A stretch of 64,000 bases of DNA from assembly GCA_950295325.1 (NCBI GenBank), contig OX485807.1:40764440-40828439 (forward strand), given 5' to 3'. Each line of letters begins with the position of its first letter. The stretch's first letter is position 1. Positions 3,001 through 36,309 of the stretch are shown piece by piece. The notes under the pieces are model-generated. The model saw nothing but the letters and a program-made list of their open reading frames with translations. It searched no databases and was not told the origin of the DNA. A program made the position numbers and the translations under genes. Origin of the DNA: Polytrichum commune. Its lineage: Eukaryota; Streptophyta; Polytrichopsida; Polytrichales; Polytrichaceae.

Positions 3001-5969
3001 GAATAACATACTGCCAGAATTCAAGGGACACACTCCAGAGTGTAATAGGTGTTGATAAAGGAGATGCAATACTGATACGAAATTAAATAATCCATCCTAG
3101 ACAAAGGAAAAATGTATCTGGGGCCAAAAATTGTGTCTGCAAAGAAATCCTCAGTTGAGATGAGGTTTCAAATTGCAAGAAGCATGTTGCAGTGAATCTA
3201 GATAACACATCACAACTGCACTTCTCACCTCAGTCAATTGAACACAATCAGGACCATCAGAATGCCAAATAAGTGCAGGAAATACAAACCTGGCATTGCA
3301 GCCCCTGGAACAACAGTAGCACCTGGAGGGGCCATGTCAAACCCACTTGTCCGCTTACTGCAAAAAGAGGTACATCAGATACAGAGAATGAGATGCCCTG
3401 CAAATCACCCAAGGTGCAGTCCCAACAAGTAACTTCAAAGCAAAATAATTGGTTCTATTTAGGATAAATGTCATCTGGATGCTCATTAAAAAGGTCTAGT
3501 TTAACTTTCATCAACTCTCCCATTTCTGGATCTCAATTACCTCTTCTTTTAAAGACCCTGCCTACAGAGTAAGTGCAACGTTTCAGAGAAACTATCCACA
3601 TATTTCAGCATGAGTACATCACTCAGGCCCCAAACTTAAAGTTTGTTTCCTTTGCCAACAAGCAAGAAATGAAATATTTCACTGATACCAAGATGCACAT
3701 AAATAACCCACTAGTGGCTATTTTGGCCAATTTAGAAAGAAAATCCAAAATGCCTAGAAAAATTGAAATGAGAATCAACACACAGCACCCTGTGTAACTA
3801 CACAGAACTCCGGAAACATTCCACATACCTTCTCCGATCCCGTGAATGAGATCTAGAACGTGACCTTGAACGGGAGAGGTCCCGTGATCGCCCTCGAGAG
3901 AGTGAACGAGATCGGTGTCTATGCCTCCTGTCCCGATCACGATCATATTCACGGCTCCGTCTGAAGAGAGTGAAATGTGGACACATAACATTTTTGTCAT
4001 TAGCACAGACAATCACTAAAGGTGCTGATGATTGCAGTCAAAAATGCTTAAAACTATCATGGTGCAGCCGCTGTGCTGATCAAGCCTCAATACTAAAATT
4101 GAATCAAAGCACATGTCAAAAGGTAGGTAAAATTGACATCACTAACCTTTCACGATCATGGCTTCGATGGCGTTCCCGGTCTCTATCACCTCTATCCCCT
4201 CTATCTCTTTCCCGATCCCCCCGATCATCTCGATGACGGCGTTCTCTGTCTCTATCTCGATCTTTTTCACGGCTCTTCTCTCTGTCTCGGCCAGAATCAC
4301 GTGAGGAAGGCTGCACCAGAAACAATAGCTCAATAAAGGGGAACATGACAACATATGAGCGTCAGCAACTTCAGACAGTTAGGATTCTGGTACGATGATA
4401 CATCATGGTGGGATGTAGTCACTCTGTAGGTCTGTACGTGGCTTAACCAAACACAGTGTAGTCATTCGATGAAATAATACTAACCTGTCCACTTAAACAA
4501 GATTACCCTTCCTGAGAAAAGATGGAAGTAGACACCGCACTTACATTTCACTAATCCTGACACTCATCTTCAATGACACCACCATGTCAGGTATACCTTT
4601 TTGATATGGCAATTAGAGATTGCAGCCACACATCCCACAAGAGTCTAAGAAACTGCTCCGGCAAAATAGAAGGCCAGATCAAAGACATCAAAAGGTTAGC
4701 TTCAATGAATTTCTACACAAACCATTAAGTTCAGATATTTTAGAGCATAAATATCATCAACGTGGAGGATGAGGTGATGGAGACATCTATACAGGGATCT
4801 TTGAGATAGTCGTTGATGTGGAGGATAAAGCATCTCTCCGTCAACCTTTACTCAACATCAGTGCTCTTTAACCGAGGTTCTTCCAAACTACGCACATGAA
4901 GGAACAACAAAAGCAACAAAAGAGTCCATTAAAATACAGATCAAGTCAAGCAGCAGTTGAACTTAAAACGTTAAGAAGCGTGCGGCAACTTACTCTTTGA
5001 TGGTAAGACCTAGAATATGTATACAATAGACTGGCTATTTTTCAGACCAAGGATGTTCACTCCATGTATTTACACACACCTACCCTCCAACTGCATTAGG
5101 TCACCTTCAAACACCATTTAGGATGATCCTACACAAAAACAGAGGACCAGCTAAGTAATATCTACTACATTTTTTTTTAAACAAAGAGACCATGCCAAAC
5201 GATCATGAATCTTAAAATGATCAGGTAGAACTTTAAGAATGACATTAACACTAGTCACAGCCTGTTTTCGATGTAATTTCATAAGACCAAGCACCTTCCT
5301 TGCATTCTTCACCCATAACACCTCATACGGAAACCTAAACACCAACAGAACAATAAATACCTGTAATCTTCGCAATAAACTCGAAGTCACCCTAAATGAT
5401 CAAAACGCCAAATACTAAAGGCGGCTGGTGTGTGTCGCTTGAAATGCTCTCAATCAACACATATTCTCTAAAATCAACGGGAAGAAATGAACCTTTCCCA
5501 CTCCCCGAGAAACCAACGGGTAGGGGAAATGTGGCATTATAACAGGGGACATGAACCATTGAAAAGACCTCAAGAGCCCGCCGGAAGAAATTCTTCGACA
5601 ATGAGGAGAGAATACCGATACTAGATTACCATTACAAATATACACCATTACGCATCCCGCCGCGAGGATTCGAACCGACTCCAAGGAGTACGCCACCAAA
5701 CCCTAGACACAAGCATACACAGAACGTGGAAATTCGAGCTACAGACAGACGGACATGGAGACGAGACTAACGACGGCCTCGCCGACACTAGAAAGGAGGA
5801 GGGTAGTGCTTGTAGTGAGCGCAAGGGGAGAGAGAGCGAGCCATTAGTACAGTACCTCGCGCTTGCGATTATCTCCGTTGTCGCGATCCGCATGCGCGTC
5901 GTAGAAATCCCCCCCGTGGCGCGCTGGAGGCGAGTCGCCGTCCTCATAAGGACCCCCTTCGTCGGCCAT
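1..5969 (-). CDS. U2AF65: U2AF large subunit (U2AF65), 5' part, runs off left edge
   Basis: Large subunit of the nuclear U2 auxiliary factor, which binds the polypyrimidine tract at 3' splice sites and recruits U2 snRNP. Exons read on the minus strand with GT-AG borders and consistent phases: 5969-5856, 4310-4147, 3960-3829, 3357-3290, 2045-1975, 1830-1786, 1386-1327, (825-802), 473-413 and 188-76. An acceptor CAG sits exactly at bases 3-1, so the next exon starts just outside the window. Exons 1-3 give an acidic start (MADEGGPYED) and a long Arg/Asp/Ser RS domain. Exon 4 carries the plant U2AF65 signature KRTSGFDMAPP, exons 5-6 a Gly/Pro/Met linker ending AMTQQ, exon 7 ATRHARRVYVGGLPP (RNP2 of RRM1) and exon 9 KKFAFVEM (RNP1). 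About 276 residues are visible; the rest of RRM1, RRM2 and the UHM lie outside. The start is the first ATG that joins the RS exon in frame. Confidence 0.95.
413..473 (-). other. U2AF65 RRM1 exon (8b) with nested internal acceptor
   Basis: This exon encodes TIATFFSQVMAAVGGNTAGP and ends in a GTATG donor. A second AG (TTTAGTCAG before base 449) lies 24 nt inside the exon. That is exactly the length of the upstream micro-exon at 825-802, so the two can substitute for each other without changing frame. Confidence 0.75.
802..825 (-). other. Candidate alternative 24-nt micro-exon of the U2AF65 gene (8a)
   Basis: Between a TTTTTCAG acceptor and a CAG/GTGACG donor, this micro-exon encodes TVATFFSQ. 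The standard exon (473-413) begins with the near-identical TIATFFSQ. Similarity continues for about 13 nt past the donor, so it looks like a tandem exon duplication. Joined to an internal acceptor at 450/449 in the second copy it gives the same 20 residues with Val for Ile. Joined to the normal acceptor it inserts eight in-frame residues. Read-through reaches a stop soon after. Confidence 0.6.
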
Positions 5970-6300
5970 GGCGGAGATCCCCCGGGTGACGCAGGCCTGA
6001 GAGCTTGACGAGGGGCGCGGGGTGCGAGCGGGTGTGGGTGCGGCAGCTATGGCGATGGGATGAGATGAGATGAGATGAAACCCTAAGCAACAAGGCGAGT
6101 CTCCCGCAAAGCGCAAGGCAGCGCAAGCCAAGCGAGGAATGGAATGGGAAAGGAAACGAAGCAAAGTGGGGGACGCTAGGTAGGGGCAAACCCTCTTCGC
6201 TAGGGTAGCTTTCCTTGGGACTCCACTTTGTTTGATAAACCAAAAGAAAAGAAAAGAAAAAAAGAAAAAAAAAGAAAAACCCCACCAAATCCTTCATATT
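5970..6300 (-). promoter_or_regulatory. Upstream region of the U2AF65 gene with a telo-box
   Basis: GC-rich 5' leader upstream of the U2AF65 ATG. It holds AAACCCTAA (telo-box-like, + strand 6077-6085) and a long purine tract on the + strand (6240-6280, pyrimidine on the gene's sense strand). Telo-boxes are common near plant housekeeping gene starts. No transcription start can be fixed from sequence. Confidence 0.35.
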
Positions 6301-6779: not shown

Positions 6780-6841
6780 TATGAATTGAGGTAGATGTGT
6801 CTAATACAGTGCCCATCTAAAACGAACATTTATATTTGAGT

Positions 6842-6947
6842 TGTCGACTAAATAGCGATCGTGTGTCACTGCAGCTCGAGTACCAACCACCACTAACAAA
6901 CAACACTAAAACATAACAAAGTCACATATAAACAACACACCTCAACA
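6842..6947 (-). repeat. Terminal repeat B2 (3' end of retroelement)
   Basis: A 106-bp segment forming the 3' terminus of the element on the minus strand, ending TCGACA. It is about 90% identical by eye to B1 at 7281-7386, with differences mostly transitions. Confidence 0.85.
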
Positions 6948-6954
6948 GAGAAAA

Positions 6955-7278
6955 AAGAGAGTAGAACACTCATAATAGCTCTAAATCTCTCTTCAAATGC
7001 ACACAATTAGTCAAGCTATCTCTCACTCCAAGGGAGAATCCAAGAGTGTAAGTAGAGGGAGAAGAACTCAAGATTTATTGTAAAATCATGCAATCTACAC
7101 CTCACACAAGCTCTCTCCACACACTAACTTACAAGACTTGACTTGGCAAGAATGCCAAGCCAAGGAGGAGGCTCATCACTTAGGAGCCTTTCTCTCCACA
7201 TCTAGATTCATCCATCCAAATCTAGATGGATGAAACCCAACGGATAAGGTGCGGCCGTCGACGCCGCATACCGTGACA
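6955..7278 (-). repeat. Internal repeat A2
   Basis: About 324 bp, nearly identical to A1 at the other end of the element. Differences seen are transitions plus two short indels. It lies between B1 and B2 and is separated from B1 by just the dinucleotide GC, so the junction reads ...TCGACA-GC-TGTCACGG... on the minus strand. Confidence 0.85.
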
Positions 7279-7280
7279 GC

Positions 7281-7386
7281 TGTCGAGTAAATAGCGATCG
7301 TGTATCACTGCAGCTCGAGTACCAACCACCACTAACAAACAACACTAAAACATAGCAAAATCACACAGAAATAACACACTTCGACA
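7281..7386 (-). repeat. Repeat B1 next to the polypurine tract
   Basis: A 106-bp copy of the element's 3' end, bounded by TGTCGA and TCGACA. It directly follows the purine tract, where a 3' LTR would normally begin. Confidence 0.85.
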
Positions 7387-7400
7387 TGCCCCCCCTCAGC
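7387..7400 (-). promoter_or_regulatory. Polypurine tract (plus-strand primer site)
   Basis: On the minus strand, CTGAGGGGGGGCA lies immediately before the TGTCGA start of B1. Position and composition fit the polypurine tract that primes second-strand synthesis in LTR retroelements. Confidence 0.65.
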
Positions 7401-7670
7401 TGACTATGGAGTCCCGCCAAACAGCTAGGACCAATGCCAATCTAAAGGGCATGGATCATGAAAGATTACTCCACAACTAACTAGTGTGGTAAATGTTATT
7501 TCAAGGAACTGTAGGCTGGGTGCAAGGTGAGCCCCATCCTTAATCGCCTCTGATGTTTGGCCATCAGATCCCAAAGAATTAAATCTACCGCCTCATGTTG
7601 ATTGCATCTCTAAGCCATAACTCCTCATTTTCCATTTGGGCAGGCACAAGATGATGAAAACCACACAGGA

Positions 7671-8180
7671 TCATTGAGTACGATTAGTGGAAGCACCAAG
7701 TACCGAAGATCCTCGATAGCGAGGACAACTCCACTGTCTAGATGGTAGAGAAGTCAAGGGTGGCCTCAAACATGCCATGTGCCAACCGCGTTGATACTGA
7801 TCACACAAGAGCATAATAGCCGCTCATTTCTTCTCTCCACACACAAAACATGGAAGACCCTCTGGCACGACGGCTAGTTCAGGATGAACTGTACCCTCAA
7901 TAGGTAGATGATATGGGACACAGTTTTTGGAATGCTCGCGATATTCCCTACCATCCTTGCCTTCCAACAACAACAAACCACTCGGCAACACCTCCTTCAC
8001 CCGAAGGATAGTGCGCCCCGCCCTGACATCCAATGTCGTAGGCGCCTCACGTTGGAGATAGACATAATTCCCTTGCCGGAATCTCCGCAACTGAGGTCGG
8101 TAAGCACCATTGCGAATGCGTGCATAACGCAATGTGTCACGGTGCTGAGCAATGGACAAATTCTCCATGGCCATAGGCAT
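7671..8180 (-). pseudogene. Integrase C-terminal region ending in a PHD-like zinc finger
   Basis: The post-core region is basic and SH3-like (QLRRFRQGNYVYLQR, ILRVKEVLPSGLLLLEGKDG). It is followed at 7850-7716 by CFVCGEKK-stop-AAIMLLCDQY, GWHMACLRPPL and WSCPRY. This matches the PHD C4HC3 pattern (C-x2-C, LLCD-x-C, GWH-x2-C, WxCPxC), with the 4th and 8th ligands Tyr instead of Cys. Both are TGT-to-TAT type changes. PHD fingers usually read histone H3 tails. Here it would sit where chromoviruses carry a chromodomain, so a targeting role is plausible but inferred. A TGA at 7826-7824 lies within the finger. Confidence 0.75.
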
Positions 8181-8207
8181 GGCCCTCTGGAAGAATTGAG
8201 CCCGCTC

Positions 8208-9100
8208 CTACAAACACTCTGCCCAAAGGTCTGGGTCATCAAAGTACACAACAGGAGCTAGTTTTTCCCGAATAGAACTTGGGAGTATAGGCTCACGTCC
8301 ATACAACAACTGATACGGGCTGTAGGACGCCAAAGAGGCATGCCTACTAAATCGATAGCCCATAGCAATCCAAGGCAACATAAGGTCCCAATCCCGGTGG
8401 CTTCCCTGAAGTAATCCATACTTCCTCAAACCACGTTTGGTTGTCTGAACAACCCGTTCAGCCAAGCCATCTGCCTCCGGATGATCCCGAGAGGTGGTGC
8501 GGTGATCTATGAGCGCCTTAGTGCACAACTCCTCAAAAACATCAAGGAACTCCCTCCCTTGATCCGTCAACACCTCAGCCGGTGCTCCAAAACGTGCCAA
8601 CACACGATCCAAAAAGGCGGCTGCGGCCAACTCTGCAGAGTTTTGGGGTAAAGCAACAAGCTCAATCCACTTGCTAAAATGCTCCACCATCACCAACACG
8701 TACTTTGCTCCACGTGGCGTGACAACCAACAGTCTCGCAAAATCTAGCGACCAACGGTAGCCCAATCCCATGATAGGTAAGGGCTGTAACTGAGGTGACA
8801 AGGTGTTAAAGCTAGACCTGACCCGGTCACAAACTTCACACCTCCCGACATAAGCAGCCACCTGCTGATACATGTCAGTCCACCAATATTGGCCACGCAA
8901 CATCGAATGTGTCATACGTATGCCAAAATGGCCAAGTTCCTCGTGCATTTGTCGCACCAAGGAGGCCCTCTGATCCGGCCTAGGAACAATACGCCTTGTC
9001 CCATCCGGCCACAATCGAAATAACAAACCGTTCTCCCAACGGAACCTTGTTATTCGATGTCCAATCCTATCCCTTTTCATTGCCGAAATAGACAAAGGAA
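8208..9100 (-). pseudogene. DDE integrase (zinc-binding and catalytic core)
   Basis: Inserts element DNA into the genome. An HHCC zinc-binding motif is visible (HEELGHFG..., CEVCDRVRSS). The catalytic core has Asp in WSLDFARL, Asp in EVLTDQGREFLD, and Glu in EADGLAERVVQTTKRG, a D,D35E arrangement. The presence of a DDE integrase, not a tyrosine recombinase, matters for interpreting the odd terminal repeats. A TAG at 8210-8208 separates the core from the C-terminal part. Confidence 0.93.
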
Positions 9101-9289
9101 AGGTACCCTGTTGAAGCTTATGCAATACGGGAAGATCCTCCCATATATCCGCAATAACTTGAGGCCGATCAGTCTCATCATCCGAGCCCTGTATCGGAAT
9201 CTCAACAGATGCACCAGAAAATAAAGTGAGGTAGGCAGCCACGTGCCAACCTGGAACCGCCTCTCGATCACAATCTCCATGCCACCTGG

Positions 9290-10805
9290 CCCCGGTCAAG
9301 TCCTCATCCGAAGGACTTGGATTGCGTGAGAGTCCATATGCATCCATGTTGGTAATCCCAGCACGGTGTACCACCTCAAAGTCATACTCCTGGAGCAACA
9401 AAGCCCACCTGGCAAGTTTGCCGGTAAGCTTATCCAACTCCATGAGCCACCGTAACGGCTGATGGTCAGTCACTAAAGTAAAGTGCTGACCATAAAGATA
9501 CGGCCAAAAATGGGCAATAGCCCATACTGCCGCCAATGCTTCTCCATTGTAGGATGAATAATTAGCCTCCGCCGTGTTATTGCTTTGCGAAGCATAAGCA
9601 ACAATATACTCCCGGCCAAAATCATCTTTCTGAATGAGAATTGCTCCCAAACCCAATGAACTCCAATCTGTATGCAACTGGAAAGATTTGGAAACATCTG
9701 GACTTCAAAGCACTGGAGTCGTACCCAGTTTCTGCTTCAATGTCTCAAACGCCTATTGTTGCTCATGACCCCAAGTCCACGGCTGGTCCTTGCTCGTGAG
9801 AATGGTGAGAGGCTTGGCGATCAAGCTAAAGTTCTTGACGAATCGCCGATAGTAATTCGCCAAGCCCAAGAAAGCACGAAGTCTCGGCACATCAACTGGT
9901 GTCGGAATCTTCTGCAAGGCATCCACCTTAGCTTGTTGTACCCCAAGACCTCATGGAACAATCATATGCCCTAGATATGCCAGCCGGTCATGGAAAAACT
10001 TGCACTTGCCGTGGTGCAAGCGCAATCCCTACCGCTGCAACCGTTCAAAAACGGCTTGTAGATGCCTCACATGCTCATGTGGTGTTGTGCTGAAGATGAT
10101 CACATCGTCTATGTAACACCGAGCAAAGGGCAAGCCAGAGAGAAGATGATCCATCACCCGCTGAAACTCAGCGGGTGCATTCTTCAGGCCAAATGGAAGA
10201 AACTTCCAATGATAAAGTTGATCTTTCCCATCTTGATCAACTCCCCAAAATGCGGTCTTCACCCGATCTCCCGTAAGTAATGGAAGTTGGTGATATCCGG
10301 ATCTCAAGTCTAAGGTGCTAAAGACCCGAGAAAATCCGATAGCATTGAACAACTCCTCGGGGATTGGCATGGGATACCGATCCGACTTGGTATTCCGATT
10401 AACTGGACGGTAATCCCCGCACATCCTCTTCTCTGTCCAATTGCCAAAGATATCCTTCTTCGATGGCATCACCGTAGCACAAGCATACTCCCCGTTGGAA
10501 AGTTCGATTAGTTTTGCTGCCAAGAGCTCTCGACAATGGGCTTGAACGCCAATCCGCTCGGAAACACTGAGTCTATAAGGTCTCCGAAAAATGGGATGGT
10601 CGTCCTCCAACTGAATGTGGATGGGTTTTCCTTTATAACCTTCAAGATCCTGAAGGCTAAAAGCAAAACATCTACGGTACGAGCGAATAAATGCTCGTAC
10701 CTTCCGTGCCTCAGCACCAGTGAGACGAGGGCCTAATTCAAGTGGCCAATCATCAAACTCTGTAGTCTCCCTCTCCACCAAAGGAGAACCACCTGATGTT
10801 GGCAC
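9290..10805 (-). pseudogene. Reverse transcriptase and RNase H domains
   Basis: Copies element RNA into DNA and degrades the RNA strand. RT motifs include RVFSTLDLRSGYHQLPL, LPFGLKNAPAEFQRVMD and the catalytic CYIDDVIIFS (near 10122-10096). The RT connection follows (LRAFLGLANYYRRFVKNFS). RNase H begins LHTDWSSLGLGAIL and continues with the acidic residue in SSYNGEALAAVWAI and the TDHQPLRWL block. The order is typical of Ty3/gypsy. Four nonsense codons (10031-10029, 9953-9951, 9755-9753, 9707-9705) cut the RT/RNase H connection. Confidence 0.93.
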
Positions 10806-11129
10806 AGACTCTAATTGCTAATGAGAAGAAGGGGCATTAACCATGCCCCTAGTCTCAGTGCTAGTACTAGAGTCTGACATTTCTTCATCACCACCAATAT
10901 GTGATGATGAAGCCACCACCGGAGGCGAAGAAACCGAAGCAGTGTAAAAATGTTGAGCTCGAAGCTCCTCCATCACATGCTGCTCGAATTGAAAAATTCG
11001 TTCGGCTTCTCCAACCATGGCGTGAATTCCCTCCTCCATGGGTGTGGACCGCTGTGCCCCCTGACCAGAGTCCTCTGCCCCCAAAGACAACCACTGGTCA
11101 CCACAATGCCTTTGCAATGAAAGGCATAA

Positions 11130-12085
11130 AGCAACAGTCCACACCATAGTATGAAGATCCATAGCTTGGCCCAAAACGAAGCGTCGTTGGCCCTTAGAAA
11201 GGCCGGGAGCTGCGGTGGTGCCAGTGCGGAATCCCATGGCACGTTCCCGTTCGTCAGCCAATGGTTCGGTGTGGATTTTAGTGTGAACATCCCACATCAT
11301 ACCCGGCCCCCTATCGCGGAAAGCGAATGACTGTGGAAACGTCATAAATGTGGGAAAGGCCCGCCGTGGTGCCCCCATTTTGTTGACCAATGCCAACGGA
11401 GGTAAATCATCTCGAACAACCGGCAATGAAGTCCAGTTTGGATCCAAGATGTCATCTACCTTTTGATCAAAAGGTGGAGGCACTGCAAAAAATGCTGCAG
11501 CTAAAGTAGATGACGGTGCGAGGTTGGTCCAAATTCACCGAGGCCGGTGGGCATAAGAACCAATGCTCGCGGCATCCACAAGAATGGGATCTCCAATGTG
11601 TTGATGAACATAATAATCGCCTTCCAACACCTTGTCCCGAGAGTCTCCCAACAAAGGTACATTCTCGAAAATATACCCTGGAGAGAAAGGTTGGTGGGAA
11701 TACCACCACTGCATGAGGCGGATGAGGTCCCAAAATAGAGTAGACATGGGATCCTCTAGTCCTCCGTCTGCTCCAGCACGTGAATGACCCTGGCATGGCC
11801 ATCCCGCAATCACCATATCCACCGGACCTAAGTGTCGTAAGTCGGCCTCACTGATGAGTGTGACATCACGAGGGAGACGTGAAAAATACCAACGAATGGT
11901 AGTCGGGTGTAACTGCTGTGGGTACAACACTATCAACCGGTGAAGATGATGACGAGCCGCACGGGTGAACACTGGAGAGTTGTCCACATAGACATATCGG
12001 TTGACCGTAAGGCCAGCCTCCAATACGGTTGCCAAACCTGTGCCAATGCCCCCAAATAGCTCCATCAAAGTAATTCCATTGTCTG
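11130..12085 (-). pseudogene. DNMT3-like DNA cytosine-5 methyltransferase domain within the retroelement
   Basis: Enzyme domain that would transfer methyl from S-adenosylmethionine to cytosine C5 in DNA. Motifs appear in the canonical, unpermuted order. Motif I is LMELFGGIGTG (FGGIGTG at 12056-12036), motif IV GWPCQGHS with the catalytic Cys at 11795-11793, and motif VI FENVP near 11650. Motif VIII is AHRPR followed by IWTNL (near 11555-11520), then a target-recognition stretch containing TFPQSFAFR, and motifs IX-X ERERAMGF...RRFVLGQAMDLH ending near 11140. The DxxxxxxAHRxR..W.NL and ERxxGF...R..LG patterns resemble DNMT3 more than DNMT1/CMT. The order is not rearranged as in plant DRM enzymes. 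It lies between protease and RT in the same frame. A TGA at 11537-11535 interrupts it directly after motif VIII; all catalytic motifs are otherwise intact. Confidence 0.92.
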
Positions 12086-12449
12086 GAGGACGCCACAAAA
12101 TGGGGCGTGCCAATGTGGATAGACTATCCGATATGACAAGTGTGGTAGAACTGAGAGAGAGGACAATGTCATCACACCTTTGGAACAAGCCAACGGAATC
12201 ATGCCACGGAGGTAGAGGGTCCTTGGGATTTCGCACCAAAGAATGCCTAGGTGCCATCTCCTGTGGGTCTTCAACACTCCCCATGAATGCTAATGACTCT
12301 TCCAATAATGTGGGTCCATGAGGCAATGTATCCACCATAGCACTGCATCTAAAAACCATGGATAATGGTGCGATGGTGGCGGCCGCTGCGAATGCCATAG
12401 GAATGAGTTCCCTACAACCGTCTCCAACCGACCGACCTGGGCGGATCCA

Positions 12450-12790
12450 AGCCTCCTCAGTCCAGTTGTCCAACCCAAAACCAAGAGAGTAAAGTGCTTG
12501 CTGACCAACTAAAATGTCATAGTTGGTCGCATCCGTCACCGCACACCTAAGAAGAAGAGGTGCGGGTGAATCTCCAGGCTTCAGGCGAAAGCTAAGCTGT
12601 AATGGCTCCTGAGTATAACCAGTGGCCTGCTCCACGTGGCCAATAGATGTGACAATGGTAAATGGACAAGGAGCCAAGTCGTCGGCCGTCAATCGCAATT
12701 CCTGCGCAAGTTTTTTGCCGATCATAATAGGTTGTGCTCCTAAATCCATCATCACACACTGGGGAGCAACTCGAATAGGGTTGCCCCCAG
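12450..12790 (-). pseudogene. Retroelement aspartic protease domain
   Basis: Retropepsin-like segment that would cut the polyprotein. The active-site region reads MMDLGAQPIMIGKKLAQEL. The catalytic Asp is at 12746-12744, but the next codon is TTA (Leu) where the family has Ser or Thr (D-[ST]-G). A TCA-to-TTA change would explain it, in line with the C-to-T damage elsewhere. A downstream hydrophobic stretch (NYDILVGQQALYSLGF, near 12520-12470) fits the second half of the fold. Confidence 0.75.
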
Positions 12791-13583
12791 TCCGGCCGAC
12801 CATCAAAATGTCGGAATCATTCACCATCCGTACAACGCCAGGTCGAATGCCTCGACGCTCGCGAGCAGGTCGAGCAACGACATCAGACAGATAAGCTGCT
12901 CCCGCGGATACTGGTGAGTCATAAGACGTGGTCGGTGCCCTGTCATGTGAGGCGTGTGCGTCAAAAGACGCAATGGTCTCTACCGCAAGTCTCGCTCGCC
13001 GTTTGGCCACCTCCTCAGGATCTTCAGAAGAAGGGATGTATGTAGTGGCTTGGGCCACGGTCAGAGAAGGTAAGGATGCATTCCCTTCCAAAATCCTACC
13101 TGCTAAGTGAAAAACCTTAGCAGGTTGGAACTCTGGCGACGACCATTCCATTGCCATGAACAAAGGTGTATGCAACACCTTGGATGCCAACGTGTGCGCC
13201 ACGTCGGTCGATGAATGTGAAACCTCATCGTTCGGATGACGACCACTAACAGATTGGACGGCATCAACCAATCCAAAAGATAATGGTAGACGTGCCTGAC
13301 CAATTTGGTCCGCGGGCGCATTGTCCCGAGCTCGCGAGCTTGTCACATACCCGTACACGGCTTGAGCACGTGTCACGGCTGCGGAACTCACCACCTCGCC
13401 CGAGGCTCTGAACATATAATAATCCGGCATGGAAGAACTAGCCTGAGCACCGGAGGAAGACGGCGAGCCCAAAATTTGGCCGGATGACGCCAAGCTTTTG
13501 AACCTCTCCTCCATGGCTCCAATTTTCGCCTCCAACGTCTTCTCCCGGTCGGAAGAAGGACGTTTCTCAATATGGAGAGCAAA

Positions 13584-14885
13584 GCAGTTCTCCACCGCGT
13601 GATTATTCCGCCCACAATGGGAACATTTCAACTGTTTGGGTAACTGATTACCCGTCCCCTTCGCCGAGCCCTTAGCGGGAACAAATGGTTTCCGCTTCGG
13701 AGTAGTAACGGTCTGGGCTTGCCTTTGCTTCAAAGGACAATCCTTCTTAGCATGGCCCGCCTGCCTACAAGACCAACAATGCAAGATCTTGTCCACCTCT
13801 GCCTCCGCCAACCCCGCAGCCGCAACCGGAACCTTCTGGAATTTGCTAGAATCTACTAGCATGGACACCAAATCAGTGGCGTCGTGCTGACACAAGGCAC
13901 GATCACACTGCTCAACAATGGCGAACGCTTCCGCAAGTGTCGCTCGGCCACCATGATCCATGATGATCCTGGGCAAAACTAAGTCAATGAGGCGTTTGTC
14001 AATCTTTGACAAAAACACCTTTACCAACTGGCTCTCGGCGAAAACACCTCCAGATTCTCTGGCAAACTTCGCCAACCTCGTGTACATGGTACGAGGTGTG
14101 TCATCTTTCTCCCGTCAAAAGTCCTGGATACGCTGCATTTGATCGCGGCGGAAACCTCTATATTCCTCCTCCAAATGAACCAAATGGAGTTGGAATTCCT
14201 GCAGAGGATCAAAATCTGGCGGAGCTCCTAAAGAAGCTAATGTCGCCTGGGTGGCCTGGGCATAACGTGACAGTGGAAGAATGGGGCTCGAAGTACTCGC
14301 CACCGCGGGAGCAAAACCCGTAGCCCTTGGCTCACCATGTGGAGCTCCCTCCACATCCACCACATAACCTCCTTCCGGTACCTCTGATTTAACCTCAAGA
14401 ATGGCCATCAAACTGGAAGATGCGCCTTCCTTCAATGCAGACACCAACTCAACCCGAGTCTCCCAGTACCGCTCCACCTGGCGCAGCTCCATCCAATGAG
14501 CATCTGTCCATTGCTCATAGGTCTGGAGAGCTTCGTGCTCCAAATATTATGGCAGAAGCTCGAACACATACTAATCGTTGAAGTCGGTATTACGTTGACG
14601 TTTCTCCCTCATCCATATTCTGAACCGAATTTTCCAATCTTGCAAGGAAATGGTCCCCACTCGACCAGAAAATCGGTCACGGATGCCGCCTCGCGTCTCC
14701 TCCTCCATCTCGTCAAATGATCCCACCCAAAGGACGTGAGACCGAGTAGCAATCCCCCACGCCAAAGTAGGTTGAAAAGCCTCGTCGGGTGCTACCACAG
14801 GTTCACTGTCCAAAAGGTCCGAAGATTGATTTTACGATGATGCCAGAGACGAAGAACAATAATGTTGGCTCTGAGTTGTAACCAT
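13584..14885 (-). pseudogene. Gag region with two CCHC zinc knuckles
   Basis: N-terminal structural part of the polyprotein. A helical region with gag-like composition around 14110-13870 (YTRLAKFARESGG, FLSKIDKRLIDLVLP) is followed by two nucleic-acid-binding knuckles. The first, CWSCRQAGHAKKDC, is at 13778-13737 and the second, CSHCGRNNHAVENC, at 13625-13584; both have exact C-x2-C-x4-H-x4-C spacing. Four of the nonsense codons fall here. Confidence 0.85.
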
Positions 14886-16436
14886 AAATCCGCAATGGAT
14901 TTGGTCACTGGAGCCAACAACCTAAACTAATGTGGTATTAGGGTAAAGGCAACCTGCACCTGCAACCACCACCAAATCTTATGGTCTGTTGGTCATCAAT
15001 CCAGCCTCACCATAAAGGAATACAAGCACCACCCACTTGGTGCACACACAAGGGTCTCGTCGGTTATTACTCCGACCTCACCCCCACAATACCCTATCAC
15101 AAACTAGGACAACATAAAAATGGGGCAATATTGGAAGACTCCAACACAACAGTCCGCTACAGGGGGAAGGTACCACAACAAAATACAAGGAACAATGCAA
15201 TAACATCACTGGATCCTCTTCCCCAAAACAACATTTAAACAAAAATGGAAAACGACCGCGACCAACCGGCACCCACCTACAGTTGGTGGTCAAAATGAAG
15301 AGCCCCTGTTGCTTAAGAAAAGAAAATGCACATTTCTCATTTTTCCCATCACTACCTAAGAATCTCTCCTCACAACAATGCCAGGAATATGTGTTGATAA
15401 ACACAATTCAACCCTAATAATAATTTATTTTAGGCTGAATGAAAATTCCACATGCCACCCAATTCCCAATGACACTTCCCTCGGAAATTTCGTACAACAC
15501 AACCCCTAAAAATAATCCCAAATATTTTTAATATTTCATAAAAGCTTAGGTTTTCTTCCTTGTGTCCTTGATTAATGAGCCCAAGAAATTAACCTCTTAG
15601 AGAGAAGAGAAAAATTAGAAGTTGAAAGGAAACATAAAATATTAAATTAAATTAAATCCGCTTTTAATTCATTAACACATTGATTAATTAAAAAAACAAA
15701 ATAAAAATACACAATCGGTTGGACTTGCAACCACCCGAATCTCAATTGATTACGTCCAAAAACAAAAACAATTCCCTCGATCACTACCCCGTGTCAAGAT
15801 TGGGTAATTTGCGCGCGTACTGCCTTCTTTGGATGTGGTAGCTCCCTCTCTGGAATCGAACTCCAAGCCTTTGTCACCCACGACCCTGGTATGCAGCTGC
15901 TGGCCTGACTGCTGCCTGCAGCCTGCCCGCTGGCCTACTTGGCAGCCTACAGCCGCCGCGAGCCGCAGGCGGCCGTAGGAAGACGCCAGAAGCCGCTGGC
16001 CATAGGTTGGCAGCAGAGGTCGCCATAGCAGCAGAGGCGGCAGCAACAACAACAACGACAGCTACAGCAGTTGTTTCTCGGTTTTATTTTTTTTATGAAT
16101 CTTCTTCTTTTGTTGAAATTTTGTGTTTTGTATGAATGAATTGCTTTTGAAAGCAAACAAGAATAGTTCCTCACAACCCAATGGCGTGAATTCAAGCTTG
16201 CAAGCAATCAATTCACATAAAATTTTGTGGAAACTTCAACACCTCATCACCACAATTCACCTTGAAATGACATTCCCAAGCAAGCATTCTTCATGTTGCT
16301 TCGCAAATCCGTGGTATTCTCGCTCCGGAACTTCACAACTTCATCACTCCTTGTCTTCACGCCCTCCCTTGCGCGTTACATCTCAAGAATGAAGAAGAAA
16401 ACATCAAAGATGAAGCATTCTTGCCAAGTGAGAAGG
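14886..16436 (-). other. Non-coding leader of the retroelement
   Basis: The 1.55-kb stretch between terminal repeat A1 and the polyprotein ATG. It has no conserved coding frame. It includes a Gln/Leu-type trinucleotide-rich patch (16030-16065), AT-rich stretches and GC-rich repeats (15890-16020). No sequence matching repeat B was seen here, although a conventional 5' LTR would place one. Confidence 0.6.
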
Positions 16437-16767
16437 AAGAGAGTAGAACACTCATAATAGCTTTAAATTTCTCTTCAAATGTACACAATTAGTCAAGCTA
16501 TCTCTCACTCCACCAAGGGAGAATCCAAGAGTGTAAGTAGAGGGAGAAGAACAGTCTGAAGATTTATTACAAAATCATGCAATCTACACCTCACACAAGC
16601 TCTCTCCACACACTAACTCACAAGACTTGACTTGGCAAGAATGCCAAGCCAAGAAGGAGGTTCATCACTTAGGAGCCTTCCTCTCCACATCTAGATTCAT
16701 CCATCCAAATCTAGATGGATGAAACCCAACGGATAAGGTGCGGCCGTCGACGCCGCATACCGTGACA
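16437..16767 (-). repeat. Terminal repeat A1 (5' end of retroelement)
   Basis: A 331-bp repeat forming the element's 5' terminus, starting TGTCACGG on the minus strand. It is about 97% identical by eye to A2 (6955-7278). Homology stops abruptly at 16437; there is no B repeat on either side. Confidence 0.85.
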
Positions 16768-17330
16768 GAGTGGTGGATGGTTGGCTTTGGATTTTTTGAC
16801 AATCACCAAAAAAAATATGTGTTGAAAAGATATTGGACTATGTGCTCAAAATCTATTAATCATTCTAGACTCAATAGTGAATTAAAAAAAACAAAATTGG
16901 AGATTGTTCACTTTGATAATGTAAGGTGCTTCTTGCTTCGGCTTTTAATAAATATAAATATAAATATTTTGAAAATGATTAACTCCAACACATTCATGTC
17001 AATCATTTCAAGTCATTATTAACTCCGAGTAGTAATGAAATTTTTAAGGATATACTCAATGTGCCATAATCTCTAGATGTTAGGAATAGGATGTCAAACA
17101 CATAATTTTTTTTTTAAATAATTGTTCCAGTCACCAATGGTCAAACCAAGAAGCACCTTATGGTAATAAATACGATAAGCATACAAACTCTAAAAACTAG
17201 GAGGAAAGTGGCTATGGGCATGATTTGGATTTGCTAGTCATCTCACACTAAATGCGTGTTTCACATCTTACAAGAAGTGAGTGCAAAGAGAAAAGTGACC
17301 GTCTAAGGCCCACTGAATGTCCCAGGCCAA
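16768..17330 (+). repeat. Dispersed repeat family C, copy interrupted by the retroelement
   Basis: The right-hand part of an old non-coding repeat whose left tip ends at 6841. Shared landmarks with other copies are GATATTGGACTATGTGCTCA, 'attctagactcaatag' and a terminal 'aagaagtgagtgcaaag ... aggcccact'. Other copies or fragments are noted separately. No transposase is visible, so the class is unknown. Confidence 0.6.
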
Positions 17331-19096: not shown

Positions 19097-20258
19097 TACC
19101 GTACGTTAAGGGCAGCTTCGGCACAAAATAATTCTAAAAATAGACGCCGAAAATTTTGGAAAATTATTGACATTTTTTTGCCGAATATAAAATTAATTAA
19201 TTTTCAAAATTGCCGAAAAGTAAGAAATTTTAACTTCTCACTAGAATTTTACTTACACTGGAAGCATATATGAATTCTGAAGGAGAGAAGGTGCTCCTTT
19301 TGTAATCAAGCTCACTTACATTAGTCCACAAAGAATATGGGTTAAGAAGTAGCAAGACTCTAAGTGAGGCTTTTCAAATGTGTTGTACACAATTTTTTGG
19401 AGCCCAATTGAGCATAGAAGATGAAGTTTTATAGAATTTTGTCCAACTAACAAAAGTTGAGAAATCAAGTAATCTTCCACCTCCAACAAGTTTTGTGTCA
19501 AAATAAGTCTTTATGCGAAAGATATGGACAAAACATTGCAGCCGTGTAAAGATCAAAAAATTAAAATGCGTTCATAACAGTTTTTCGGAGCTCATTTGTG
19601 CATAGAAGATCAACTTTTTTGGAATTTTGTTGCTCTAAGAAAAGTTTAGAAATCAAGTAATCTTCCACCTCCAACAAGTTTTGTGTCAAAATAAGTCTTT
19701 ATGCGAAAGATATGGACAAAACATTGCAGCCATGTAAAGATCAAAAAATTAAAATGCGTTCATAACAGTTTTTCGGAGCTCATTTGTGCATAGAAGATCA
19801 ACTTTTTTGGAATTTTGTTGCTCTAAGAAAAGTTTAGAAATCAAGTAATCTTTCACCTCCAACAAATTTTATGTCATTTGAAGACTCTATGCAAAAGTTA
19901 TGCGTGTTATAAAAATGAAGTCTAACTAGGTGCTTCACCTCAAACTTTACATATCCCATATGCATTGTTGAACACAACTCCACTCTACTTGTATAAAGCA
20001 CAGAGCATTCTCAATCTTTCACAAAATCGTGAAAGATTTATATCTTTTGTAAAACTCTTCACACAAATTGTGAAATCGTGAATGAACATCCTTGTTTACT
20101 GTTAGATAATAACTTCTTGGATGTATGCCGAAATTGCATTATTAAACTATTTAAAATGCCGAAATTTTTAGTAATTTTTTTTTGCCGACGAACACTGTTT
20201 TTTTACTTTTAATAATTATTCGGCAAGAGAGCGCCGAAGCTGCCCTTAACATACGGTA
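19097..20258. mobile_element. Non-autonomous TIR element (1.16 kb) with internal tandem repeats
   Basis: The ends are 26-bp terminal inverted repeats with one mismatch. They contain GTTAAGGGCAGCTTCGGC (19105-19122) and its complement (20233-20250). Subterminal GCCGAA/TTCGGC motifs recur on both sides (19129-19220, 20160-20240). If TA is the target duplication, the inner TIR begins CCGTA, a mariner-like arrangement, but this is uncertain. No transposase is encoded. The middle is a 188-bp tandem array. Confidence 0.75.
19370..19925. repeat. 188-bp tandem repeat array inside the TIR element
   Basis: The word GAAATCAAGTAATCTTCCAC starts at 19461 and 19649 and recurs with one mismatch at 19837, an exact 188-bp period. 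The second and third spacer segments are almost identical; a diverged partial unit lies upstream. About 2.5-3 units in total. Confidence 0.9.
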
Positions 20259-28780: not shown

Positions 28781-29437
28781 TTCAGCAACAATATCTTGGA
28801 AGCGGAGGACATGCTAATCAATACAATTGAGAAACACAGGAGAATTCATAGTAATTATACAGAAACGGGAATTCAATCCCGGCAGCAACATACAGCGCTC
28901 ATCGAACAATGATGCTTGCGCATCCTGCCCGCGCGTCCTTTAATTACTCTGCCATTATCGATCAACTCGAACGATGTCCATCAAAAATTGCAATTGAAAG
29001 TCTTCTCGGGGATCGGATCATTATCTACTTGGGATGGCAGACATTGATTCTAGGTGCCAGAACAAGCTAAAAAATTACTAGCACAAGGTTTGAGTGCAAT
29101 AGATCCTTTCGAGGTCTCCACGAGCTTCAAACTTGTGACTCCTCCTCCACGTGCATGCAACTGTTGCAAACCTTCCGTTCGGGATGTTTTATGCCTTTCG
29201 ACTATGTCCACAGTGGTGAGAATCTTAGCTGATACTTGACATTATGTACCTATTTACGGCTGTGTGTGCATGCATGCTCAGACCGCAACTGCTGTCGATG
29301 AAGATCTGATGCATCTCTTGAATATATAGGAGTTCTCTTTCGGTCTCTCTCTCTCTCTGGTGGCCAGCCCCTGGTTGCGAAACACATGTAGATTATGAGG
29401 GCGGCCTCACTCAGGGGGAGAGAGAGCTTTAGAGTCG

Positions 29438-31271
29438 TCAAGTCGTGCCGTTGGTGGCGTGCTTGGGAAGCGAGCCCGTCGTTTGCTTGGCTCCTTGAAG
29501 CTCACCGTTCTTCTCCATCTGGACGTAGACCGAGTGGGAGACGGGCTTCATGGGAGTGCCTTTCTCGTCAGCGTCGGTCTGCTGTTCCTCCAGTTCTCTT
29601 GGCGTTGCGTTTTTGTAGAACGCGTACAGACACAGTTGCGCGATGCCGGACAGAGCGCCAAGGCCGTTAGGAATCTGGTAAACAGAGTCGAGTCGGCACA
29701 TCAGGGATAAAGATTGATGAAGGAGAGGGATTCACCATTCAACAGAATATAAATATTGTTTGGATTAAATTTACCACGTCTTCTATCCACATTGGTGAAG
29801 GCCATATTCCATCCAACGTGGAATTTATCTTTATGGACTCGAAGTGTTGAGCCTGGCAACACCACCCCTAGGGTAATCCTTCGCAAGAAATGCAAATACA
29901 TCAGGACCAAACTTAGTCCGGTATCACGGAAAGCTGGGTGTAGAAAGGTTTCTGACTTACGGCAATAAAGACGTCAATGCCACCAAGAAATGCATAGCCA
30001 AACCACACCAAGCCGTTGATGAAGTTAAAGAGGGAGAGCAAGAAAGGCATGTATTCCACACTCCTGGTCCGGATCACCAACCTCTGCAGAAAGCCAGATG
30101 ACATAAAGTAAGAAAGATAACTCCCTACGTGACGGTGAACGGAGAGGTGTGAGCATCGAAGTGCAGATTAGATCATGTCACGGAAGAGATGTTAAGGAGC
30201 ACAGGGGGAAGAGGAAGTTGAAATATGTAGTCAATGCCTTAAGTGCTTACCATGACTGTGAGGGGCGAAGCGTACATTCCCACTGCAAACACAGCACACA
30301 GACTGCCGATGATGAGCTTCCGTTTATTCTTGTCATGGACTAGCAACAGTACAAGCACCACGACGATGGCAAATCCAACGATGACAGCCGTCAACAACTT
30401 CATCACCTTCATCTGCGGTGACGGCAAACAGGGTGCACACGAAGCGTGGCATTAGCGACAAAGTAAGGCGTCTCTGCAGTAGAGATTGATCATGAACATG
30501 AAGAAGTAAGATGACTGGGATAAGATAATTGCAGAAAATATGGGAGTTATATGCATGCGTAGATTACGAACCCTGATTTTCTTTGCTGCATGTATCAGAT
30601 ATAAGGTGAGGTACGTAAACTCAATGGCGCATCCGGCTGCATTGATCGTAACTACCAAGACTTGGAACTTCACAATAGGGAGTCCGTAGACCACCCATAG
30701 CATGCAATTGAGAAGAGTGCATACGTAAGGAATCCCGGAATAGTCCCCCACCGACTTCCTTTTCACAATGTCGATGAAGGTGGGGCTGCAAGTATGGAAA
30801 AGTAGACGTTAATATTCAACCACCAAAAACATGATGATGCTCTTGAATTGGAATAAGCTATTTTCATCCGACACGTTGTTTCAAGAAGGTTCAACAAGAT
30901 AGAGACAGCACTCACATGGGGGATGTGAACAAGCAGATGGCGGTAATGTTTCCTGGACACACCCAACAAAGGCCACCCAAAAACAGAGTACTGAGATCCA
31001 GCAATTCAAGAACCCGAAATTGGATGTTAATTTGTGCAAGATGACAGACGTGATACAGAGCACGGCATGAAAAATTAAGATGTAGGTGCAGCAGGGCGCC
31101 ATGATCTCTAAAACTGATGATCGACTTGGCATGCTGAACGTTTCTTGCACCATCATACAAACAGTAAAGTGGGACATGTACATGTAGGAGACACACATGA
31201 GAGACAAAGAAGGAAGGAAGGTAGGCGTTACCCAAGATGCCCAGAATCAGCTTGAAGTCCACATGACCCAT
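29438..31271 (-). CDS. SWEET: SWEET sugar transporter, complete six-exon gene
   Basis: Bidirectional sugar uniporter of the SWEET (MtN3/saliva) family, acting at the plasma or tonoplast membrane. Exons on the minus strand, all GT-AG and in phase: 31271-31232, 30952-30916, 30785-30572, 30412-30251, 30083-29961 and 29674-29438. The product is 270 residues, a normal length. Repeat 1 starts GHVDFKLILGILGNITAICL and carries the P-T-F and SGIPYVCTLLNCMLWVVYGL signatures. Repeat 2 carries MYASPLTVMRLVIRTRSVEY, MPFLLSLFNFINGLVWFGYA and IPNGLGALSGIAQLCLYAFY. Seven membrane segments are expected; the last about 60 residues form a polar cytosolic tail (ELEEQQTDADEKGTP). The start ATG sits exactly at the family's short N-terminus. 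Clade and substrate (hexose or sucrose) cannot be assigned safely from this reading. Confidence 0.96.
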
Positions 31272-31600
31272 TTCTGCCGCTGCTGCCTTTCACAAATTCT
31301 CACAAGAATATCAGCGGGCCTGTGAAGCTCAAACTCGTGAATTCAAAAACTCCTGCCACCTGCCCCCAGGGAGGAGGAAAAATCTAGAAAGGGAACGACG
31401 ACACCAAGAATTACAACTCCAAATTGCTCACGAGCCAGCCAAGCTCCCTCCCCTGATCCCTGGCTGATACTGAGCACTCCGAAACTCTGGATCCCTCTCT
31501 CTGGAGTCTGTCTCTCTCTCTCTATGAACGAACGAGCTCTAGCTAGCTGGCCAGTGCAAGTGTACCTTGCTGTGTACTCATGGCAGATTTATGTAGTGTG
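31272..31600 (-). promoter_or_regulatory. 5' leader and proximal upstream region of the SWEET gene
   Basis: Directly upstream of the SWEET ATG. On the + strand it holds a TC microsatellite (31494-31524), which is a GA repeat on the gene's sense strand, typical of plant 5' leaders. No TATA box can be assigned with confidence. Confidence 0.35.
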
Positions 31601-33245: not shown

Positions 33246-35301
33246 TTCCTAGATACCGGACGTAGGGCTCACCATCTCAGGATCTAGCCGATGTGTCGTG
33301 TCTTCATTGGACATGAGCATGACAAATATAGACTGTAGCAAGTGTTTCTCACGACACAATGAGTATTACATTCAATATCGTACACGTCACTGTTGGTCTG
33401 CTATAGCTGTCCTCTTCGACTTCTTAAGTCAAAATAAGAAATAAGAAATAAATCTGGTCGTTGGATGGAATTTAGGTTCGTCTTGTCTAGTTAGCAAAAT
33501 CCGTGATGAATCGTTAAAATTGTTATTTATTTCAACTTTCAAGTTTCAAAATCCAAGATTGAATTGCAAAAAGTTATGAGAAATCAAAGGTGAGGTAATA
33601 TCTACCTCTTTAAGTGGTGTTGACACATACACCCTCCCAAATTTTGTGGGTAACACTTGAAACTAGCATGGTGTTGTATGTTAAGCACATAGTCCCATCT
33701 CATATTGTAACATGTATGTCTTTCTGGTGTTTGTGATTGACTACAAGTGTTGTCATATACGTTTAAGTTGCATTAGAAGCACATTATTATTCATAACGTG
33801 GAGAGCAGTTCCAATAGCTCCATGCTTCCAACAACTACAGAGAATATTTTCATCCATAACATCCAAATTGTGTCCACAAGCAATTGACAAGTTATGCCTC
33901 ATAAACCAACTCTACTATTTAGGTGTCTCATGACCCGTTACAACTCACTACCATAAGTTATTGTCCAGTCTCCTCTCATCGGCTATGGAGTCCATCGTTT
34001 GACACTTCAGTCAACATACTAAACCCTACATCGGGATCATATTGGGCATAATGTTATCATATGAATGGTTACTTCCTCCTTTAAAATTGAGGGAAAATTA
34101 ACATTAGGCAGGAGAATTTGTGCCCAATCAGACATGAATAAACTTCATTCTCCTTCAAGTTTCAACTTTGAGAGGTTACATCCATGGTGTATATATACTC
34201 TTGCATTAAGCATTCTACCTCTCCCTTACCAAGCCATTCGATTGTCATGCAGTCCTTATGCGAGACTGCCTCCACCCACGATTCAGATTGCCACATGTTA
34301 CCATGTAATTGGTTGGAACACCTTTTGAAGATGATGTGGAAATTGAATCTAGGCAAAGACACACCCAACCTTACCAAAATGTATTGTATTTAATTGTTTT
34401 TGCAATGTCTCAAGCAATGTCTGTACATTATCCTTTTTATATATATACATATATACACACACCATTTGGGTCTCTATGATGAGGATTTCATATTTTTGGA
34501 TACTTGTAAAAGTATTATAAATGCTTGACGATACTTTTTGTTCTCAACATCATCATTTGGATCTATATACATATCATGCACGAACCTACATACCTACACT
34601 GAAATCACCTTAGTATCAATACGATTCAAAAGAAGTAATCCCAAGACTATAATTAACAATGGAATAAACAACTACGTGTCCTATGGAGACGTGGTAAACC
34701 AATCAGGTTTGTGAGCCATATGATAGGTAACCATATCGCAAAGTTCGGCGTGCACTTTACTATGTCGAACGTGTAAACAATCCGAAATACATTACCGTAT
34801 TCACACTATTTGAAGTACTTGCCCCATCCCACTACTTTGGATACCCATTGACCCAACAAATAACTCGGGTATGCAAAAATTCTCTCACCTAGATATATCC
34901 ACCAAATACCCAACATTCTACCTGTACTTTAATTTCGATACCCAGGGGTAGGTTCTTTGATGCCAACCAATTTACTGATGCCGATTATTGATGCCCATGC
35001 ATTTTACTTGTCTCAACATTAACTTGCCTTTAGAAAGTTACATCGGCCATCAGGATTCTTGCATCCTTTAAGCATCTTGTGCAGTGCCTGGGAAGTTTTT
35101 GAGCATGCATAGTCGGTCAAGATCCTAGTGATTCTAAATCCAACCGGTTACATGTTAACATCTTCGGGTTTGGCTTTCATTCATGTGAAGTATATTCTTC
35201 TATAGATTCCTCTAAAAGGACCGGTAAGGTAATTCTCCTTGAAGGAAGTCTCCAACTTCAACCGGTGAGTTTCTCAAACTTCACCAGTTCATCTGTAACC
35301 A
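33246..35301. other. Intergenic, nothing recognised
   Basis: AT-rich and unassigned; a short TATATA run lies near 34437-34460. Confidence 0.45.
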
Positions 35302-35804
35302 AGGGCCACTTCACACACGAGACTGAGAGCCCGTGACCATTACACTGCAAGCACTCTCATTGGTGGAAAAGGCACACCTGGTCCAAGTTCACTTCACGCT
35401 ACGCTTGAGGGACCAACGGAGTATGTGAATGCAAGATGGATGTAAACTCTACATGGATTCCTACATGACATCAAGTGGATCATGTTTCATGGTCACCTGG
35501 ATTATTTCCAAAACCCATCTCTTAGAGGTAGGCCGAACACAAAACCGGGAGACCATGGCACCTTGAATGCCAACAACCGTTGATTTATTCTATTTTATCA
35601 TGTGCGAGGATCCGCGTGGATAGAAATTCATTGAAATAGCATTTGGTTGAGGCCCCGGTCACACATGACTTCACACTCCACTTGAGGGCCCGTGACCACA
35701 CTACATGATGTTGGAGGTGTGTTGGGACGGCCTTTGGACACTCTTCTTTTGGGCTGTCACAATTTTCATGGTCACGGCTCTTGGCTCATGTAGGAAGTGG
35801 CCCT
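35302..35804. mobile_element. Family F element (about 500 bp), unit 1 of a tandem pair
   Basis: Non-coding element with terminal inverted repeats AGGGCCACTTCACAC and its complement (GTGGCCCT end). Nearly the same sequence follows at 35810-36309, and an inverted copy lies at 47174-47675. Unit 1 lacks a clean matching duplication on its left. Confidence 0.8.
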
Positions 35805-35809
35805 CCCTA

Positions 35810-36309
35810 AGGGCCACTTCACACTCGGGACTGAGAGCCCGTGACCATTACACTCCAAGCACTCTCATTGGTGGAAAGGACGGAGCCGGTCCAAGTTCGC
35901 TTCACACTACGCTTGAGGGACCAACGGAGTACGTGAATGCAAGATGGATGTAAAGTCTACATAGATTCCTACATGGCACCAAATGGATCATGTTTCATGG
36001 TCACTTGGATTATTTTGAAAAACCACCTCTTGGAGGTAGGCCTAACACAGAACCGGAGACCACGGCACTCCGAACGCTCACAACCGTTGGTTTATTCTAC
36101 TTTATCATGTATGAGGACCCGCGTGAATAGAAATTCATTGAAATAGCGTCTGGTTGAGGGCCCGGTCACATATGACTTCACACTACACTCGAGGGTCCGT
36201 GACCACACTACGTGATTTTGGAGGTGTGTTGGGACGGCCTTTGGACACTTTCTTTTGGGCTCTCACAATTTCATGGTCACGGCCCTTGGCTCGTGTGGGA
36301 AGTGGCCCT
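35810..36309. mobile_element. Family F element, unit 2
   Basis: 500-bp copy flanked by the direct 5-bp repeat CCCTA (35805-35809 and 36310-36314), showing an independent insertion next to unit 1. The TIRs are as in unit 1. Small open frames inside it are conserved only because the DNA is repeated. Confidence 0.85.

Follow-up and report, generated by a model that had tools for sequence, protein, structure and literature searches.

A Ty3/gypsy retroelement family with a predicted DNMT3-type cytosine methyltransferase, represented by a decayed copy in Polytrichum commune

Plants silence transposons through cytosine methylation. Because of this, an element that keeps a cytosine methyltransferase (MT) of its own under selection presents a paradox, as a mobile element may then put on its own DNA the silencing mark that plants use. 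The window analyzed here, i.e., the whole stretch of 64,000 nt (contig C5:40764440-40828439 of a 407.8 Mb genome), raises this question, as a preliminary description had placed within it a Ty3/gypsy retroelement with a captured DNMT3-like MT. Is such an enzyme encoded there, is it the trait of a family or of a single chimeric copy, and on what might it act? The paradox is testable in this genome, in which young, near-identical copies lie beside old ones and the seven largest contigs make up 99.6% of the sequence (406.1 of 407.8 Mb).

Anatomy and decay of the window copy

The element lies on the minus strand, and its features are given below in the order in which it reads.

6842..16767, minus strand: whole element with TG...CA termini, ~9.9 kb, decayed (from split repeats and flanks)
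16768..16771, no strand: target duplication ACTC, 5' flank, identical to the 3' flank
16430..16767, minus strand: split repeat A1, 94.4% identity to A2 over 339 columns
10818..14885, minus strand: ORF1, gag-protease-methyltransferase, five premature stops (aligned with intact relatives)
13580..13778, minus strand: gag, pair of CCHC motifs resembling zinc knuckles (recognized by eye, without a Pfam match)
12432..12824, minus strand: aspartic protease region, approximate (aligned to the relative P0006)
11130..12080, minus strand: predicted DNMT3-type cytosine-5 MT, premature TGA at 11537-11535
10812..10820, minus strand: TAG CAA TTA, ORF1 stop (TAG = 10820-10818) in a type I readthrough context
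7671..10817, minus strand: ORF2, RT-RNase H-integrase-PHD, in the frame of ORF1, six premature stops
10035..10436, minus strand: reverse transcriptase (RT; RVT_1, Pfam 1.1e-21)
9384..9698, minus strand: RNase H (RT_RNaseH, Pfam 2.2e-34)
8478..8978, minus strand: integrase, H2C2 zinc finger and rve core (3.8e-16 and 2.4e-15)
7717..7850, minus strand: PHD finger, degenerate here, intact in the genomic copy L048
7387..7397, minus strand: polypurine tract (by eye)
7281..7386, minus strand: split repeat B1, 90.8% identity to B2
6948..7278, minus strand: split repeat A2, linked to B1 by a 2-base spacer, GC (7279-7280)
6842..6947, minus strand: split repeat B2, with CA at its end (from repeat and flank comparison)
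6838..6841, no strand: target duplication ACTC, 3' flank (from flank comparison)

Some of these assignments draw on better-preserved sequences, including the protease region of P0006, which matches Asp_protease_2 at 6e-4 (under the curated cut-off), and the PHD finger of L048, which matches PF00628 at 6.4e-12. The preliminary description had put MT in frame between protease and RT, and the three do share one frame, but that frame is broken by stops: because of the TGA within MT and the TAG before RT, they do not form one unbroken reading frame. Likewise, MT is encoded in the segment first assigned to it (12085-11130), although its frame begins at about 12080 and not exactly at 12085. With 11 premature stops, five in ORF1 (one of them within MT) and six in ORF2, the window copy is dead. 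CpG deamination was rejected as the chief cause of this decay, as CpG transitions account for just 37 of the 374 differences between the window copy and L048. A nested insertion is not favored as the explanation of the long 5' leader either, the distance from A1 to TAG being 5.9 kb in both copies. No primer binding site was recognized in the element, nor was any tRNA or Rfam family detected in the window.

Other observations in the window concern sequences outside the element. Arg/Ser-rich exons at 3800-6050 (minus strand) resemble by eye a gene for an SR-type splicing factor, and fragments at 29400-31290 (minus strand) resemble by eye the exons of a SWEET sugar transporter. Tandem-like direct repeats are present at 19373-19936 (three copies of 188 bases) and at 35301-36259 (period of about 508 bases).

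The MT motifs FGGIGTG, PCQ, ENV, AHRPR, WTNL, ERERAMGF, and LGQAMDL were all found on the minus strand, in the order I-IV-VI-VIII-X. In the profile search, the N-terminal half of the window MT matched Pfam PF00145 at 8.1e-10, and its best PDB match was DNMT3A (2.3e-5). The C-terminal half alone had no match in Pfam or PDB and was recognized through alignment with intact relatives. One intact relative, P0016, scored 4.5e-10 against DNMT3C, 2.1e-5 against DRM, and 1.2e-3 against HhaI. DNMT3 is thus the nearest among solved structures, before DRM and HhaI, and the motif order is canonical; the likeness to DNMT3 noticed at the outset holds, and sequence scores support the assignment of the element MT to the DNMT3 type. 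An origin from DRM was rejected, as DRM scores lower and the motif order is not rearranged, i.e., the late motifs do not precede motif I. They do so in a host DRM exon of this genome (L064, G000:C2:4701359-4705159; family read by eye), a gene type that assigns the host to the streptophytes.

The element family and its relatives

A profile search of the genome with PF00145 gave 123 scored matches from 353 candidates, all of them above the curated cut-off; the copy in the window is absent from this set. Open frames of 1325-1386 codons contain 19 of these matches, and 18 of the 19 have no internal stop. The 60 best-scoring of the 123 loci, picked as methylase matches, were fetched, and tblastn found this MT in 59 of them, the exception being the DRM exon L064. 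RT adjoins MT in 58 of the 59 (L054 is without RT). As the same MT recurs in 59 of the 60 fetched methylase loci, the original observation was not due to chance, and a one-off chimera is ruled out; MT together with RT in 58 of the 60 makes MT a family trait. The family is a high-copy Ty3/gypsy family of this genome, and the window holds a dead member of it.

Many copies are better preserved than the one in the window. MT is uninterrupted in 41 of the 59 loci; PCQ and ENV are present in all 41, F.GI.TG in 38, R.RW in 36, and ERAMGF and LGQAMDL in 35 each. Of the 51 copies with RT in one piece, 36 have an RT free of stops, and YIDD is present in 49. Based on RT identity to the window, the copies fall into two subfamilies, A (82-97%) and B (mostly 81-85%, with some pieces higher or lower); L012 was placed in B by the length of its MT, while in its RT and stop context it resembles subfamily A.

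Ka/Ks was calculated from copies with full-length, gap-free matches only. In subfamily A, MT has a median pairwise value of 0.23 (18 copies) and RT one of 0.15 (16 copies); in subfamily B, the medians are 0.39 (24 copies) and 0.24 (22 copies) respectively. Taken as ratios of sums, the values for MT and RT are 0.23 and 0.14 in A, and 0.34 and 0.25 in B. In comparisons across the two subfamilies, with four copies from each, Ka/Ks is 0.12 (MT) and 0.07 (RT); synonymous sites are close to saturation here, and 6 of the 16 MT pairs give no defined value. As judged from these substitution patterns, MT is shown to be under purifying selection, with a constraint somewhat weaker than that on RT.

Relatives outside this genome were found in three protein searches, which gave 20, 59, and 164 matches (120 of the 164 listed). 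Named plant hosts among the matches listed are Marchantia polymorpha, Calypogeia fissa, Sphagnum fallax, S. troendelagicum, and Monoraphidium neglectum; another host label, Chrzof1, was read as Chromochloris zofingiensis, and most relatives listed are contigs without an organism name. Their presence in liverworts, Sphagnum, and chlorophytes suggests an old lineage. With P0006 as the query, no relative was found among viral contigs. A search of viral contigs with the A3 profile gave 562 relatives, of which the best 80 included none above 35% identity. Against prokaryote genome contigs, the same profile gave 221, and among the best 80 only L075 (CADCWO010000201.1, 63%) is a family member, the other 79 being at 33% or lower. 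L075 is filed under a Synechococcales metagenome-assembled genome (MAG), and P0070 under Candidatus Obscuribacterales; bin contamination is the probable source of these plant-type element sequences in bacterial MAGs.

The relatives have two layouts. In one, protease and MT are located 5' of RT (Gag-side); in the other, MT lies between RNase H and integrase (Pol-side), often with a PHD finger after integrase. A side observation concerns P0047, in which about residues 1690-1881, past the PHD finger, contain DPWAGTG...TSPW and appear N-methyltransferase-like by eye; P0057 has a similar tail, and this region of P0047 has no Pfam match.

The existence of two layouts implies either a relocation of MT or more than one capture. 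That Gag-side and Pol-side elements each captured a host DNMT3, instead of a single capture followed by relocation, is possible, though we give it somewhat less than an even chance. The MT tree of 47 rows (40 hand-chosen from P0005-P0069, six from this genome, and a partial mouse DNMT3C as outgroup) splits the two positions cleanly, with 25 Gag-side rows against 20 Pol-side rows plus P0069, in which MT precedes RT (branch support 92/98); it is best read without a root, given the great branch length of mouse DNMT3C, and the layouts of truncated proteins in it were set by alignment. Separate captures would also agree with de Mendoza et al. (2018; PMC5890265), who argue that MT was acquired within the Klebsormidium nitens lineage. 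However, a Gag-side query from Marchantia finds the Pol-side MTs at 33-40% identity with full coverage, and the RT tree (23 rows) has the same split, with a branch (support 91/88) that sets the seven Gag-side rows apart. The row next to these seven is P0154, which bears the default label Pol-side and has the actual order MT then RT. No plant or algal host DNMT3 was recovered among the 120 listed of the 164 matches in the third protein search; as this search scored just the 8000 candidates sharing most words, and 120 of its matches were listed, the missing host genes are no proof of absence.

The stop codon, the split repeats, and a possible mechanism

In all 58 copies with RT, ORF1 ends at TAG followed by CAR YYA, with CAA or CAG after the TAG and then TTA in subfamily A, or TCA (once CCA) in subfamily B. 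The frames of MT and RT agree in 52 of the 58, the remaining six carrying shifts, and in the window RT continues directly past TAG CAA TTA in the same frame. As a background, CARYYA follows 17 of the 6785 stop triplets on both strands of the window, and three of these 17 are TAG. The context also occurs beyond this genome: in L075, ORF1 runs to 3491 and ends at TAG CAA TCA, followed by 1047 open in-frame codons that encode RT, RNase H, integrase, and, by eye, a PHD-like C-terminus. Among the close metagenomic relatives P0005-P0016, 11 of 12 proteins end in the short C-terminal motif found at the end of the window's ORF1, the exception being P0007. A conserved RNA structure downstream of the stop was not supported, as 22 of 200 shuffles were equally stable, although seven sequences taken singly gave more stable folds than their mononucleotide shuffles did (z of -2.1 to -4.0). 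Further, readthrough would not apply to every relative, since P0154 encodes MT and RT in a single open frame that has no intervening stop; it may be an intermediate, or belong to a lineage that lacks the signal.

The type I readthrough of tobamoviruses has UAG CAR YYA as its motif, described as acting through the six bases after the stop, and benyviruses have UAG-CAA-UUA (PMC3542737). As gag-protease-MT ends at a stop of this readthrough type, MT would be made at the dosage of Gag, not of Pol; Gag-protease-MT would be the abundant product, and RT-integrase a minority extension. We think it unlikely that the TAG is instead a plain terminator, with RT-integrase made by another route such as re-initiation or an mRNA of its own, in which case MT would still be Gag-side and its ratio to RT would not be set by readthrough. 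Such an arrangement would fit the long open frames on both the 5' and 3' sides of the stop; it fits poorly with UAG CAR YYA in 58 of 58 copies from two subfamilies and in L075, with a YYA that varies only within the consensus (TTA, TCA, CCA), and with an RT that is open in frame directly past the stop.

The ends of the element are equally unusual. The window copy, L048 (subfamily A), and L045 (subfamily B) all have the plan A1, ORFs, polypurine tract, B1, GC, A2, B2, so that two complete LTRs were rejected in all three copies examined. The A repeats are identical at 99.7% in L048 and 99.55% in L045 and the B repeats at 100% in both, which indicates that these two copies moved recently. Each of the three copies is flanked by a 4-bp target duplication (ACTC in the window, GAGA in L048, CATC in L045), and their B1-A2 junction, CGACA-GC-TGTCACG, is also found in L075. 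The arrangement from A1 to B2 may represent a permuted molecule with two [B-A] repeats, in which CA-GC-TG would be a kept circle junction.

The membership in Ty3/gypsy proposed at the outset is confirmed by Pfam matches to RVT_1, RT_RNaseH, Integrase_H2C2, and rve. The order RT-RNase H-integrase and the target duplication are those of Ty3/gypsy LTR elements, which differ in having two complete LTRs, and the best PDB match of the relative P0062 is the Ty3 polyprotein. Split repeats are shared with DIRS elements, which differ in having a tyrosine recombinase without an integrase; rve is present here, and no recombinase was among the Pfam matches of the element pieces scanned.

Taken together, the account that we favor, with moderate confidence, is of a high-copy gypsy family, dead in the window, with a Gag-side MT, UAG readthrough, and an MT in the particle that methylates the element's own cDNA. 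The first frame would yield Gag, protease, and the DNMT3-type MT, and stop at UAG in its tobamovirus-type context; a minority of ribosomes would pass the UAG in frame and add RT, RNase H, integrase, and the PHD finger. Made alongside Gag rather than Pol, MT may enter the particle and methylate the element cDNA before or at integration, and the integrase would then insert the element DNA and leave 4-bp duplications. The B1-GC-A2 junction has the look of a circle junction, with a possible role in replication.

An improbable alternative is that MT targets host chromatin at the insertion site, or RNA, instead of the element's own cDNA, perhaps with guidance from the PHD finger. This finger has a histone-reading fold and follows integrase, and RNA is discussed as a possible substrate of a LINE-type MT in PMC5890265; however, the Gag-side position would bring the enzyme together with the nucleic acid inside the particle, and the nearest solved structures are DNA methyltransferases. 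Methylation of the element's own cDNA remains our preferred reading, and the Gag-side position predicts both the dosage and the place of MT, for which the Pol-side relatives offer a natural comparison. More tentatively, and with less confidence than in the account above, we suggest an old green-plant lineage of gypsy type with DIRS-like ends, a DDE integrase, and a de novo DNA MT, which in bryophytes would be encoded together with Gag, 5' of a UAG readthrough signal, be stoichiometric in the particle, and methylate the cDNA there, so that newborn copies receive a host-like or self-silencing mark.

Comparison with known systems

The REM1/TOC1 elements of Chlamydomonas are gypsy relatives with a PHD finger and unusual terminal repeats, and resemble the window family by description. 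The Pol-side elements of Chromochloris, Monoraphidium, and unnamed contigs have a related MT and RT, and many have a PHD finger after integrase, but they carry MT in the Pol frame between RNase H and integrase, whereas the window family carries it in ORF1.

With the type I readthrough of tobamoviruses and benyviruses the window family shares the motif, the UAG-CAA-UUA of benyviruses being identical to that of the window. In the viruses, as described in PMC3542737, readthrough extends a replicase or coat protein, whereas the stop of the element splits gag-protease-MT from RT-integrase.

Captured MTs in retroelements of a dinoflagellate and a charophyte, mentioned in the preliminary description, are confirmed in the literature (de Mendoza et al., 2018; PMC5890265). 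KnitGypsy-Dnmt3 of the charophyte K. nitens has Gypsy domains and DIRS repeats (Fig. 4 legend of that paper), and its MT is described there as Dnmt3-related, under purifying selection, and part of the Pol polyprotein ORF. Going by these statements, a gypsy element with a DNMT3 MT and DIRS-like repeats is a kind that has been in print since 2018. The window family shares with it, by text description, the Gypsy domains, the Dnmt3 MT, the purifying selection, and the DIRS-like repeats; it differs in that its MT precedes RT and is part of the gag-protease ORF, which ends at the UAG. The likeness is by description; no match named K. nitens was among the matches listed in the three protein searches. 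Judged mainly from titles and abstract openings, the literature gave no bryophyte or land-plant element of this kind, and no report of a Gag-side MT or a readthrough context in such LTR elements, of 4-bp duplications with split-repeat gypsy ends, or of chlorophyte Pol-side relatives.

As to activity, PMC5890265 reports CG methylation in yeast by the MTs of DIRS-type retrotransposons and no methylation in yeast by the K. nitens gypsy MT, a result that its authors call inconclusive as human DNMT3B also failed. In its discussion, the mark is considered as a possible way to pass as self, to guard against editing, or to slow transposition. SymbioDIRS-Dnmt3 of dinoflagellates, as presented in the same source, is likewise a retroelement with a DNMT and the split-repeat ends of the DIRS class, but it has a tyrosine recombinase, whereas the window family has a DDE integrase and 4-bp duplications. 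The combination of split repeats with integrase-type duplications in the window family thus bears on how DIRS-like ends arise.
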